In this document: one piece after another, positions 32,117-53,590 of the stretch
How positions within the stretch are numbered: position 1 is the first letter of the stretch
How the letters are laid out: each line of letters begins with the position of its first letter
Source: Psychrobacillus sp. FSL K6-4046
GTDB taxonomy: Bacteria; Bacillota; Bacilli; Bacillales_A; Planococcaceae
Length of the DNA: 64,000 nt
Assembly: GCF_038624605.1 (NCBI RefSeq)
Contig: NZ_CP152020.1
Span: 3,775,312-3,839,311, forward strand
Reading direction: 5' to 3'
Notes under the pieces: model-generated
The model's database searches: none
The model's input: only the letters and a program-made list of their open reading frames with translations
Told to the model about the DNA's origin: nothing
Made by a program: the position numbers and the translations under genes

Positions 32117-33343
32117 TTACCGCACCCCCTTCTTTAGAAGAGAACGGTAAAAAAATAGAACTGGACTTAAAATAAGCGCACTTACTATAATTGCAGTCTT
32201 AATAGTAAGGGTTGTGGCAATATACCCAATAACAGGTCCACCGCTTATTTGCCCAACTGCATCCACCTGCCCTTTTACAGAGAAAAATGTTGCCCGAGTA
32301 GAAGAGTCAGGTATGATTTTATTTAACCAAATGTCCTCTAATGGGGACATTACCTTCCGACTAACTTGGATTATTACATAGCAAATAAACAAACCAATAA
32401 TATAGCTCGAAAATGCAAAGCCTATTAATGCTACCACTATACTGGAGCAACCAATAAAAAGAGCGATATATATTCGGTGCAATTCTTGATAAATCGTACT
32501 TTTATTTAAAAAGTGAAGCAACATATATGACAGCAGCACGACAACTAATTGAATTCCTCCAGTTAATAGCACCAGTCGTTCATTGGACAAGGTAGTTATT
32601 TTAGCCATTTCTAATAGATGAGGAAGCCACAGACGATCAAAACCTTCACTATAAAAACCTATAAACAGAGCGATTAGAAATAGCATACGAAGTATAAAGC
32701 TAGTTCTGGAGAAAAGAATGATTTTCTCCAAGTTCTCTTTCATTGTCTCCCATGCACCAATTCTTTCGCTTCTTTTCAAAGGTTTAAAATGATCCTCTTT
32801 CATAAATATTATTAGTAAAACAGCTAAACCAATCATACATAATCCTCCTACTATAATCGGTAGATGGATTAGGTACGAGCCGATTAATACGCTTAACGGA
32901 ATGGCAACTAATTGGCCTAGGTTTCCAGCCTTAGCTCCTCTCATATATGCAGATGAGGCCTTTTCTTCTCCTATTTCATCAGCTATCCAGGCTTGCAATG
33001 ACCCGCTAGTAAAGGTATACCCTATCCCCCATGCCACTTGAGCCAATAAAACCGTAATAAAAAAAGGAAACAAGCCTTCTAATAAAAAACCAACTCCTAT
33101 TAGAAAGTAACCAATGATAACGGATAGCTTCCGGCTCTTTAAATCAGACATGATACCAGTTGGAATTTCAAAGAGAAATACGGTTAACTCCAACACAGTT
33201 CCCACTAAAACTAGTTGCAACGGATCCAGCTTAACAACGCTTACTTGATACAACAAACTGACTGTAAATATAAAAGTAAAAAATAATTGCGATAGAAAGC
33301 AAATATAAATATACAGCCGATATGGGTCCTTTAAACTACTCAT
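32117..33343 (-). CDS. MFS transporter
   Basis: 408-residue major facilitator with about 12 hydrophobic segments. Loop 2-3 reads FEIPTGIMSDLKSRKLSVIIG, containing the family motif as PTGIMSDLKSRK (about residue 60). The halves are joined by a basic loop (FKPLKRSERIGAWE). It belongs to the TetA/permease-like MFS group that carries xenobiotics, but no substrate can be assigned. AGAGGTGAGGTAA precedes the ATG. It ends convergently 52 nt from the AraC gene. The cobalamin riboswitch starts on the other strand just upstream of its promoter region. Confidence 0.8.
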   Translation of the reverse strand: MSSLKDPYRLYIYICFLSQLFFTFIFTVSLLYQVSVVKLDPLQLVLVGTVLELTVFLFEIPTGIMSDLKSRKLSVIIGYFLIGVGFLLEGLFPFFITVLLAQVAWGIGYTFTSGSLQAWIADEIGEEKASSAYMRGAKAGNLGQLVAIPLSVLIGSYLIHLPIIVGGLCMIGLAVLLIIFMKEDHFKPLKRSERIGAWETMKENLEKIILFSRTSFILRMLFLIALFIGFYSEGFDRLWLPHLLEMAKITTLSNERLVLLTGGIQLVVVLLSYMLLHFLNKSTIYQELHRIYIALFIGCSSIVVALIGFAFSSYIIGLFICYVIIQVSRKVMSPLEDIWLNKIIPDSSTRATFFSVKGQVDAVGQISGGPVIGYIATTLTIKTAIIVSALILSPVLFFYRSLLKKGVR

Positions 33344-33408
33344 TTACCTCACCTCTCCACTTGATTATAAAAAGAGAAGCAGTCTACGACTTATCCAAAT
33401 TTGCTATA

Positions 33409-33434
33409 TTGACTAACTTTTTTTATGTTATAGT
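33409..33434 (+). promoter_or_regulatory. Probable extended -10 promoter for the cobalamin riboswitch
   Basis: TATAGT at 33429-33434 is preceded by TGT (extended -10 TGN). TTGACT at 33409 is a -35-like string, but its spacing of 14 nt is short, so the extended -10 probably carries recognition. Confidence 0.45.
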
Positions 33435-33462
33435 GAAAGAACAATTAAATAATGTGTAGATT

Positions 33463-33640
33463 TAGGTGTTCTTTTAATTACAAAAGAACTTAAAAGGGAA
33501 GTTCGGTGAAAGACCGACGCTGTCCCGCAACTGTAAATGTGAGCAATACTTTATAAACCACTGTATGTATCGATACTACGGGAAGGAAGGTAACGCAATG
33601 ACCATGAGCCAGGAGACCTGCCTATTTCAAGTACACACCA
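33463..33640 (+). ncRNA. Cobalamin (B12) riboswitch aptamer
   Basis: The conserved series is present in order: AAAAGGGAA at 33492, GGTGAAAGACC (33504 on), the B12 box GCTGTCCCGCAACTGTAA at 33519-33536, ACGGGAAGGAAGG near 33578, and GAGCCAGGAGACCTGCC at 33605-33621. The outer strands (AGGTGT at 33464, ACACC at 33633) can close P1. All core elements seem intact, so ligand binding is likely. Downstream genes have no link to B12, which is unusual. Confidence 0.93.
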
Positions 33641-33715
33641 CGACCCTACGAGGATAGGAGGTGCTAAGTGCAACTATGACAAGCAAAGCTTGAAAATACT
33701 GCCGTACGAAAAGAC

Positions 33716-33770
33716 ATACTAAAATCCACTGGAGTGAACAGACTCCTTATTTAATCGTGGTTTTTATTTG
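33716..33770 (+). terminator. Possible riboswitch expression-platform terminator
   Basis: CTAAAATCCAC pairs with GTGGTTTTTA, enclosing an inner GGAGT/ACTCC hairpin, and TTTTTATTTG follows. Upstream, CACC...CCTA and TAGGAGGTG (33637-33664) can form a competing hairpin that masks a ribosome-binding-like TAGGAGGTG. Only 3- to 5-codon frames follow that site. Confidence 0.5.
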
Positions 33771-33805
33771 TTTCCTAGCGTACTGACTATTAAATCATAC
33801 TAACC

Positions 33806-33841
33806 AAGCATCCTCTTTTATAAAAAAGAGGATGCTTTTTA
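33806..33841 (+). terminator. Strong terminator after the cobalamin riboswitch region
   Basis: AAGCATCCTCTTTT and AAAAGAGGATGCTTTTT form a perfect long stem with T-tail. It lies before the small 72-aa gene and would end the riboswitch transcript. Confidence 0.92.
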
Positions 33842-33866
33842 TGTTAAAAACGAAAGGATTTTGGAA

Positions 33867-34085
33867 ATGAGAAAAGAGATTTTTATGGAGCAATTTAAGC
33901 AAGTATTAATGACAAACCAGGTTGCAAGTACCTCGATATCTCTACAGTCTACCTTTGAGGAAATGAAAAAAGAAATTGAGCTTAACTCAGTATGGAGTAT
34001 AGAAGAAAGAAATCTTTTTCTTCACCACTTAAATGTTGCACACCGTCAGATTAAACAAGAGATTGCTGGAATAAAGCAGGAATAA
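33867..34085 (+). CDS. Small helical hypothetical protein
   Basis: 72 residues, soluble, with charged amphipathic helices (STFEEMKKEIELNS, HRQIKQEIAGIKQE). Not recognised. ATG 33867 has AAAGGA 9 nt upstream; an in-frame TTG at 33861 is too close. It starts only 26 nt after a strong terminator, so either it is transcribed through that terminator from the B12 riboswitch promoter or the terminator acts as an attenuator. Nothing in it suggests a cobalamin function. Confidence 0.55.
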   Translation: MRKEIFMEQFKQVLMTNQVASTSISLQSTFEEMKKEIELNSVWSIEERNLFLHHLNVAHRQIKQEIAGIKQE

Positions 34086-34153
34086 ATAAAATACATATGT
34101 CAGTCAATTTCATAAATAGAGCTTTACCGATTAACACGAACATTTTATCCGTA

Positions 34154-34283
34154 TTGATTGTAGCGACAGACGGCGACTCCTACGGGATAAGTGAGACAGA
34201 TAGACATCACAACCACGCGCGTAAGCGATGGGTGATGGCTTATCGCTCACCCCGCGGAAAGCATCCGTCAGAGCGGAAGCAAT
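34154..34283. repeat. Bacillales-type interspersed palindromic repeat
   Basis: The element runs from TTGATTGTAGCGACAGACGG to GCATCCGTCAGAGCGGAAGC. It has GACGG/CCGTC ends, GATAAG/CTTATC, and an inner CATCAC/GTGATG stem, with the phrase GACTCCTACGGGA and the near-end CCCCGCGGAAAGC. From memory this matches the non-autonomous repeats (GACTCCTGCGGGA ... CCCGCGGAAAGC) found in many copies in Bacillaceae genomes. Long frames through it on both strands are artefacts. Confidence 0.7.
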
Positions 34284-34387
34284 TATGCTTCTACACATAT
34301 AAAAGCATATATAAATCATTGTTTTCTACTATTTGTTCGTGTTTTGCTTTTTAAATATGAATTATGAAATTGACACTTAAAATAATT

Positions 34388-34425
34388 AAAAAAGCGAACC
34401 AATGACGTTAGTCATTTGGTTCGCT
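34388..34425 (-). terminator. Terminator after the 58-aa gene
   Basis: GCGAACCA...TGGTTCGC with inner ATGAC/GTCAT, followed on the minus strand by TTTTTTAATT. Confidence 0.88.
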
Positions 34426-34430
34426 AATTA

Positions 34431-34607
34431 CTATAGATCTTGATAATCCCTTTGATATTTACCGCCATCTTTAACCTCTGAATGATACAAAGCCTTTAGA
34501 GCAAAGCTTTTTTCTAAATCATGCTCCTTCATTACTTCCTTCAATCTTTTAGCTAAATCAGGACTGAACTTAACAAGCTCTTCCATTTTAGATTTTGAAT
34601 ATTGCAT
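34431..34607 (-). CDS. 58-aa small helical protein
   Basis: A 58-codon gene (starts MQYSKSKMEELVKF, ends YQRDYQDL). GGAGGTAATGTA lies 7 nt before its ATG at 34607, and a strong terminator follows within 10 nt, so it looks like a real monocistronic gene. The protein is charged and helical in the first 45 residues (LAKRLKEVMKEHDLEKSFALKALYHSE, in parts) with no membrane segment. Not recognised. It lies between the interspersed repeat and the mnt promoter. Confidence 0.7.
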   Translation of the reverse strand: MQYSKSKMEELVKFSPDLAKRLKEVMKEHDLEKSFALKALYHSEVKDGGKYQRDYQDL

Positions 34608-34754
34608 TACATTACCTCCCCACTATCATTGTTTATACAGTATAGCACTTTGTATTAAAGACATACGAAAATTTCAGTTTAGGCTAATTAAAATTGGCTC
34701 ACTCCAACTCCTAAAATAGACAATCACATTTTTTCCATTTTCGCATAAATTAAT

Positions 34755-53373: not shown

Positions 53374-53590
53374 AAATCCTCTACTTTTCCCCATGAGATA
53401 GCACACCATTATAAACCGGGACGTTTATAACGGACAGTCCTGCAATTCTTCACTGCAGACCCAGCATGTAATAATGAGTTTATTACAAGCTTCGGCGACA
53501 TTTCCTTCTCCTTAGTATCTAAGCTTCTCAAGCTCCTCTAAGGACTGTTAAATATCGCGCCTCTACCTCACTTATAAAAGCGAGGTTATA
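53374..53590 (-). ncRNA. Lysine riboswitch (L-box) aptamer
   Basis: Read on the minus strand, conserved elements occur in order: GAGGTAGAGGCGCGA (53560-53574), the AGGAGA..GGAAATG region, GTCGCCGAAGC (53489-53499), GCTGGG (53460-53465), CTGCAG, GGACTGTC, and GTGTGCTATCTCATGG (53391-53406). This matches the L-box consensus of lysC and lysine transporter leaders. All five-way junction elements seem intact, and a sigma-A promoter lies just upstream. Confidence 0.92.

Follow-up and report, generated by a model that had tools for sequence, protein, structure and literature searches.

What does a cobalamin (B12) riboswitch control when no B12 gene is recognised behind it? Such a riboswitch is located on the forward strand of contig NZ_CP152020.1 of Psychrobacillus sp. 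FSL K6-4046, in a window (the whole analysed stretch of 64,000 nt, contig positions 3,775,312–3,839,311) to which all coordinates given without a locus name refer. A sequence-only reading had described it as having no B12 gene behind it and proposed three options: a riboswitch-controlled small RNA, a lost gene, or B12 control of a 72-aa protein through a terminator. Comparative analysis points to the third of these, and a B12-repressed transcription unit of one gene, encoding the 72-aa protein, is very probably the best explanation of the locus.

The aptamer matches the Rfam model RF00174 over its full length (33447–33639, +; model positions 1–189 of 189; 113.9 bits, E 9e-28, against a gathering score of 31.5 bits), confirming that it is intact and placing its start 16 nt further 5′ than first read. 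Its B12 box, GAGCCAGGAGACCTGCC, occupies positions 33606–33622. An extended −10 promoter-like box (TG-T-TATAGT; 33426–33434, +) was recognised by eye upstream; its TATGTTATAGT is common to the aligned relatives G007, G008, G014 and G016, and TGTTATAGT, also kept in four relatives as judged by eye, precedes the start site, which is expected near 33441. The box is absent from the output of a consensus promoter scan. A divergent MFS transporter gene (32117–33343, −; PF07690) lies outside the regulated unit and serves as a synteny marker.

Between the aptamer and the gene lies an expression platform consisting of a switch hairpin, a possible antiterminator and a terminator. The switch hairpin P13 (CACC...GGUG; 33636–33663, +), predicted by folding, has a Shine–Dalgarno-like AGGAGG in its 3′ half; all seven Psychrobacillus leaders compared retain the outer pairs of the hairpin, and five retain the inner ones. 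The L5 loop of the aptamer, CUGUCCCG (33520–33527, +), could pair with the P13 loop side (33649–33657) at −10.5 kcal/mol as a free duplex, with pair positions assigned by hand, and may be its kissing partner. P13 is followed by a small conserved hairpin, CAAGC-AAA-GCUUG (33680–33692, +), whose five pairs are invariant in seven sequences, and by a long predicted hairpin (33704–33783, +), for which the consensus fold has two-sided changes at some pairs and disruption at others. The element at 33716–33770, initially read as a possible platform terminator, does score in a terminator scan, but in the predicted fold it forms the inner part of this long hairpin with its U-run paired; termination may occur there. 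The perfect terminator (33806–33841, +) stands as originally described, with a 14-bp stem at 33806–33837, a T tail and a folding energy of −19.6 kcal/mol, and is proposed to be the B12-controlled platform. The same scan found four terminator-like sites in 33000–34600, compared with 1.0 (sd 1.1) in shuffled sequences. The leader indeed contains only frames of three to five codons (MQL*, MTSKA*) behind the AGGAGG. A ribosome binding site AAAGGA (33853–33858, +) then precedes the 72-aa ORF (33867–34085, +), which is identified by profile matches, conservation and selection. Further downstream, a conserved protein of about 58 aa (MQYSKSKME...; about 34430–34610, −) adjoins the locus; G008 and G016 have it too, and it was recognised by eye in G004, G006 and G013. 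Elsewhere in the window, an ordinary lysine riboswitch (53391–53573, −; 104.6 bits) precedes genes for proteins of 278, 265 and 244 aa, by eye a likely amino-acid ABC transporter.

When the leader is folded only up to the 5′ arm of the terminator, AGGAGGUGCU (33656–33665, +), the proposed antiterminator strand, pairs with AGCAUCCUCUU (33807–33817) through ten pairs with one bulge (−12.9 kcal/mol). Once the 3′ arm is added, the terminator forms and P13 returns. The leader therefore has the sequence features that fit transcription attenuation. The L5–L13 contact of cobalamin riboswitches is B12-dependent in published structures and, since the P13 loop can pair with L5 here, B12 would be expected to close P13 and so halt transcription. 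In the proposed mechanism, bound B12 would keep P13 closed through this contact, the terminator would form and the gene would be off; without B12, positions 33656–33665 would pair with the terminator arm 33807–33817 and the 72-aa protein would be made. Production of the protein is thus most likely repressed by B12. Of 86 distinct B12 leaders, 81 have a hairpin of −8 kcal/mol or lower before a T run, compared with only 13–14 of 86 shuffled ones, so the terminator noticed at first is an ordinary platform element. Hairpins of any energy are frequent in shuffles as well (59–64 of 86, against 84 of 86 leaders), and so only the energy-bounded counts are telling.

We also compared cognate and permuted terminator arms among these leaders (86 in total, 81 usable, 43 without near-duplicates and 42 when the outlier L027 is excluded). 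Over the whole linker, cognate arms paired better (p 0.0032, n = 43; p 0.017 without the outlier, n = 42). Pairing of the P13 3′ strand with the terminator 5′ arm in linker region 25–50, a region picked after the whole-linker result had shown where the pairs fell, averaged −8.95 kcal/mol for cognate and −8.01 kcal/mol for permuted arms (p 0.0010, n = 42; p 0.0008 with L027 included; p 0.0097 in the 28 leaders with a P13 of CCTACGnGGA type). The 5′ linker control gave p 0.54. The terminator 3′ arm, intended as another control, gave p 0.019 over the whole linker, so this control is not clean. Across leaders, the P13 3′ strand and the terminator 5′ arm match modestly better than chance; a leader's own arm outperforms about 62% of foreign arms. 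A consensus fold of seven leaders keeps P13, the small hairpin, the long hairpin and the terminator, with two-sided changes in 7 of 63 pairs and an unfavourable covariation term (+0.52). A leader of the same design also stands before metE and other B12 genes, which supports the option that the terminator puts the 72-aa protein under B12 control.

Is the 72-aa ORF a genuine partner of the riboswitch? With positions 33400–34090 as a query against 61 genomes, the locus was found in six congeners, over the full query in G001 and over parts of it in G008, G007, G014, G016 and G010; all six share the linker, terminator, aptamer and ORF on the correct strand. Riboswitches of other genera also precede ORFs of similar make-up. 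A profile of 26 rows (A5), seeded mostly with riboswitch-adjacent ORFs, matched 58 places in 56 of the 261 genomes of the bacterial family, covering 9 of 19 genera; the other 205 genomes had no match. A B12 box (up to three mismatches, plus a second aptamer motif) lies less than 600 nt upstream on the same strand in 44 of the 58 places, 172–453 nt from the match (242 nt in our locus), and accompanies 29 of the 31 places with E up to 1.3e-9 and 15 of the 27 weaker ones. Matches to RF00174 at the same or overlapping loci bear these riboswitches out and bring in a degenerate one (L084, 33.0 bits). All 261 genomes contain RF00174 matches, 1 to 9 each among the best nine candidates, and we therefore argue, rather than simulate, that adjacency in 44 of 58 places is not expected by chance. 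The 44 linked places bear eight genus labels, and the names of identical or near-identical proteins include Psychrobacillus, Sporosarcina, Viridibacillus, Kurthia, Rummeliibacillus, Solibacillus and Lysinibacillus.

Among the remaining places, L074 has the small gene behind a riboswitch–metE gene, and twelve lack a riboswitch (L064, L065, L072, L081–L083, L085–L089 and L092), most of them weak profile matches. The L065 copy, which contains a stop, precedes a riboswitch–metE gene. Four others may be false hits: L086, L088 and L089 are close to cspA-leader matches and L072 to a tRNA. L087 (genome G084, protein P0090, E 7.7e-14), a clear family member, has no RF00174 match within 5.5 kb upstream, so the link between riboswitch and small gene is not strict. 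The notion that no gene follows the riboswitch is not sustained by this survey and the neighbourhoods, in which the ORF is a conserved riboswitch partner. The description of the protein as unrelated to B12 fails as to regulation, since the family mostly sits behind B12 riboswitches, though it may hold for molecular function.

The protein from our locus belongs to the family by its profile match, by the conserved residues M15, L26, A58, E65 and G68, and by the B12 riboswitch directly upstream. A broader profile (A8, 27 rows) collected 89 proteins; wherever a source is named it lies in this bacterial family, and the protein names read hypothetical or uncharacterized except for one that mentions a YozE SAM-like domain. 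Members are mostly 55–81 aa long, with a median pI of 5.0 and no conserved Cys or His. Against Pfam and NCBIfam, our protein has no match above cut-off, and weak hits of other members are scattered. Among variants, L131:8997–9350 (G029) encodes a 117-aa form that looks like two domain copies; a tandem pair of B12 riboswitches precedes the small gene in L110 (G033) and L124 (G184); and a Bacillaceae-1 RNA (RF01690) lies behind it in two congeners (L007:2268–2326, −; L011:445–511, +). Searches of open-licence PMC articles on the genus, small-protein and B12-riboswitch topics returned no paper naming the protein among the matches listed; in the matching passages of PMC8123684 and PMC8390425, which combine a genus name with "B12 riboswitch", the genus names belong to a list of species and to a reference. 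Within the scope of these searches, the small-protein family is the undescribed part, and the riboswitch itself is ordinary in build. The regulation of the family is fairly clear.

Substitution patterns in seven Psychrobacillus and eight Sporosarcina-type loci separate the ORF from its leader. The dN/dS of the ORF is 0.27 between our genome and G001, 0.18–0.60 among the seven Psychrobacillus sequences (with high dS in many pairs) and 0.11–0.25 among six close Sporosarcina-type sequences, which places the 72-aa protein under purifying selection. For leader frames, the 28 pairs of the eight Sporosarcina-type sequences give dN/dS from 0.30 to 3.3 or undefined, and dS among the six close ones is 0–0.24, compared with 0.05–1.09 for the ORF. 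Because leader-frame dS is very low and dN/dS ranges so widely, the leader seems to be conserved as RNA.

These values bear on the idea that P13 hides the AGGAGG, so that B12 controls translation of a leader frame, which in turn sets read-through, in the way that uORFs modulate B12 leaders of M. tuberculosis. Many leaders do have an SD-like AGGAGG in P13 with start codons behind it, leader frames reach 60 codons in G010 and G016, and some leader-frame pairs have dN/dS of 0.3–0.6. However, the frames vary in length and reading frame and have just three to five codons in our leader, the 28 pairs favour RNA conservation over coding, and of the metE leaders L015, L017 and L023, only L023 has a plausible start by eye. 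We regard this translational step as unlikely, and it could add to B12-controlled termination rather than replace it. For the same reasons a leader peptide as the product was rejected, if not fully.

A long, conserved and structured leader might also be used twice: at high B12, the terminated transcript of about 400 nt would act as a regulator, and the read-through mRNA would yield the small protein. This is compatible with repression of the 72-aa gene by B12, but the long leader hairpin may only bring antiterminator and terminator together, and we consider the second use rather improbable.

Still less credit goes to a trans-acting small RNA, resembling EutX/Rli55, made from the conserved linker with the ORF incidental. 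The linker is unusually conserved within each of the two aligned groups, its frames have low dS, and it holds a second terminator-like hairpin. Against this, between the genera compared, only P13 and a GUACGA box were recognised as shared. Synteny also weighs on the other side. The divergent MFS gene is present in 11 of 19 Psychrobacillus genomes, and in six of the 11 the riboswitch and ORF follow it. The other five have neither a small gene nor a whole riboswitch within the 1300 nt examined at the syntenic site: all that remains is the 5′ portion of the aptamer in G006, C-terminal ORF codons in G004 (by eye) and a 21-nt trace in G017, and G011 and G013 give no match. In the congener G002, the small ORF occurs at another place, behind a riboswitch–metE gene. 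A selected protein gene that recurs under eight genus labels and is lost together with the riboswitch leaves the small-RNA option without support, and a eut version of it would lack its system in our genome, where EutB is absent.

That the riboswitch is a decaying relic of a lost B12 gene hardly deserves belief: the small gene is missing from 10 of 19 Psychrobacillus genomes and the G006 riboswitch is truncated, but the aptamer is intact in all eight Psychrobacillus genomes with the locus, the ORF is under selection, no other gene stands between the two in the loci read, and the seven aligned Psychrobacillus loci have only leader frames of up to 60 codons there.

If B12 represses the 72-aa gene, its company may indicate its role. 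Our genome has four B12 riboswitches in all. One precedes a ribonucleotide reductase large subunit, which is probably class I because it matches the NrdJ model only below cut-off; another precedes a cobalamin adenosyltransferase match (38.6 bits, cut-off 24) and then a periplasmic-binding-protein gene; and another a further binding-protein gene of BtuF type. Four B12 riboswitches are thus kept although the MetH activation and MetE N-terminal domains are unmatched in this genome. In 40 neighbourhoods, chosen from the hits rather than at random and with one member per cluster put to Pfam, a B12-linked neighbour was recognised in 13; none was recognised in the other 27, where most genes are unidentified. 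A riboswitch–metE gene lies beside the small gene or in one operon with it in L107, L108, L119, L120, L130 and L131. In L115, L125 and L132, a methylcitrate-type operon is found on one side and riboswitched nrdI/ribonucleotide reductase genes on the other. Pyruvate carboxylase is encoded directly behind a riboswitch in L114 and within a riboswitched methylcitrate-type operon in L118, and cbiM-type genes follow a riboswitch in L116 and L123. Given such varied neighbours, the small gene seems to be a partner of the B12-shortage set and not of one pathway. The riboswitches before pyruvate carboxylase or methylcitrate-type operons (L114:8053–11499; L118; L125 from 1208) have what seem to be less usual targets; the operon content is citrate synthase, MmgE/PrpD and PEP mutase.

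Dependence on single B12-linked enzymes was rejected for three candidates. The MetH activation domain (PF02965), present in 205 of 261 genomes, is not matched in our genome, G172 or G001, all of which have the small gene. The MetE N-terminal domain is above cut-off in 3 of 19 Psychrobacillus genomes and EutB (PF06751) occurs in 5 of 19, and neither is found in our genome. Our genome has NrdJ and three mutase-family matches; 258 of 261 genomes have methylmalonyl-CoA mutase/IcmF and all 19 Psychrobacillus genomes have NrdJ, so for these near-universal enzymes absence patterns are uninformative on a partner. In G006 (C23), G010 (C14) and G016 (C3), NrdJ matches come in two pieces 330–340 bp apart.

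Co-regulated and neighbouring genes, encoding B12-free isozymes and B12 or cobalt handling, suggest a role in B12 shortage. The small protein would join the response in which riboswitched ribonucleotide reductase, MetE, methylcitrate enzymes and B12/cobalt handling take part. The lack of conserved Cys and His, the acidic median pI and the absence of a recognised domain lead us to infer, less certainly, a role exerted through protein contacts and not through catalysis or B12 binding; the protein may, for example, act as an adaptor for, or inhibit, a B12-dependent enzyme or the handling of B12. We tentatively speculate, by analogy and as a possibility we would not bet on, that at low B12 it attaches to a B12-dependent enzyme or to the machinery supplying B12, lowering its activity or diverting the cofactor and thereby sparing B12. 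Candidate partners in our genome are class II NrdJ, the methylmalonyl-CoA mutase family, and B12 uptake and adenosylation. Such a B12-sparing effector, if real, would act as the B12-free isozymes are switched on, in parallel with small proteins of metal shortage. The locus also suggests a route to gene finding, namely tracing orphan riboswitches to overlooked short ORFs.

The only lead to a relative is YvfG of B. subtilis (PF09628; PDB 2gsv, 2js1), a weak one because it was picked as the best of 177635 PDB sequences (E 0.027). Of two profile–profile comparisons with different alignments, one scored 78% across 65 columns and the other 67% across 14, with hhalign E-values that count a single comparison. 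YvfG is likewise small and has an insert of 11 residues where long family members have one. The PF09628 cut-off was not reached by any of 27 members (one at E 0.019; our protein none up to E 1), the domain occurs in 0 of 61 genomes of this bacterial family, and no cobalamin riboswitch was found within about 3 kb at any of the 12 YvfG loci tested out of 39. The septation initiation domain SID (PF11778) was rejected (19.7 bits against a cut-off of 25, in one of 27 members).

EutX/Rli55 of Enterococcus and Listeria, a noncoding sponge of EutV according to a passage of PMC5821096, resembles our locus in its AdoCbl aptamer and in a transcript length that depends on B12, as proposed here; it differs in that the RNA is noncoding, whereas here a selected ORF follows, is lost with the riboswitch and stands in a genome without EutB. 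AspocR of Listeria, a B12-riboswitch transcript antisense to the regulator gene pocR (as excerpted from PMC9943018), is a different arrangement, since our transcript points away from the divergent MFS gene and reads an ORF in the sense direction. The metE and ppe2 switches of M. tuberculosis are also B12 OFF switches, one of them before a gene of uncertain function, but the portion of PMC11260477 that describes them presents them as translational and accompanied by translated uORFs, whereas here the leader frames are short and lack conservation. MntS of E. coli, a small protein induced under scarcity of a metal cofactor in the account excerpted from PMC4361602, offers an analogy only, with another cofactor and another mode of control.

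Closer to home, Priestia megaterium, also of the Bacillales, likewise has uncharacterised genes adjoining a B12 riboswitch; the relevant passage of PMC8390425 assigns them polyhistidine motifs, in contrast to our family with its lack of conserved His. The target classes of cobalamin riboswitches listed in a section of PMC3766115 are B12 synthesis, B12 transport, cobalt transport and isozymes, "other or unknown" aside. Known targets of this kind are mostly self-explanatory, in that they make, import or bypass B12, whereas the target here is an uncharacterised small protein. In its layout, the locus agrees with the transcription-attenuating cobalamin riboswitches throughout: aptamer, P13-type hairpin, terminator before the gene and the expected OFF switch are all as in those systems.
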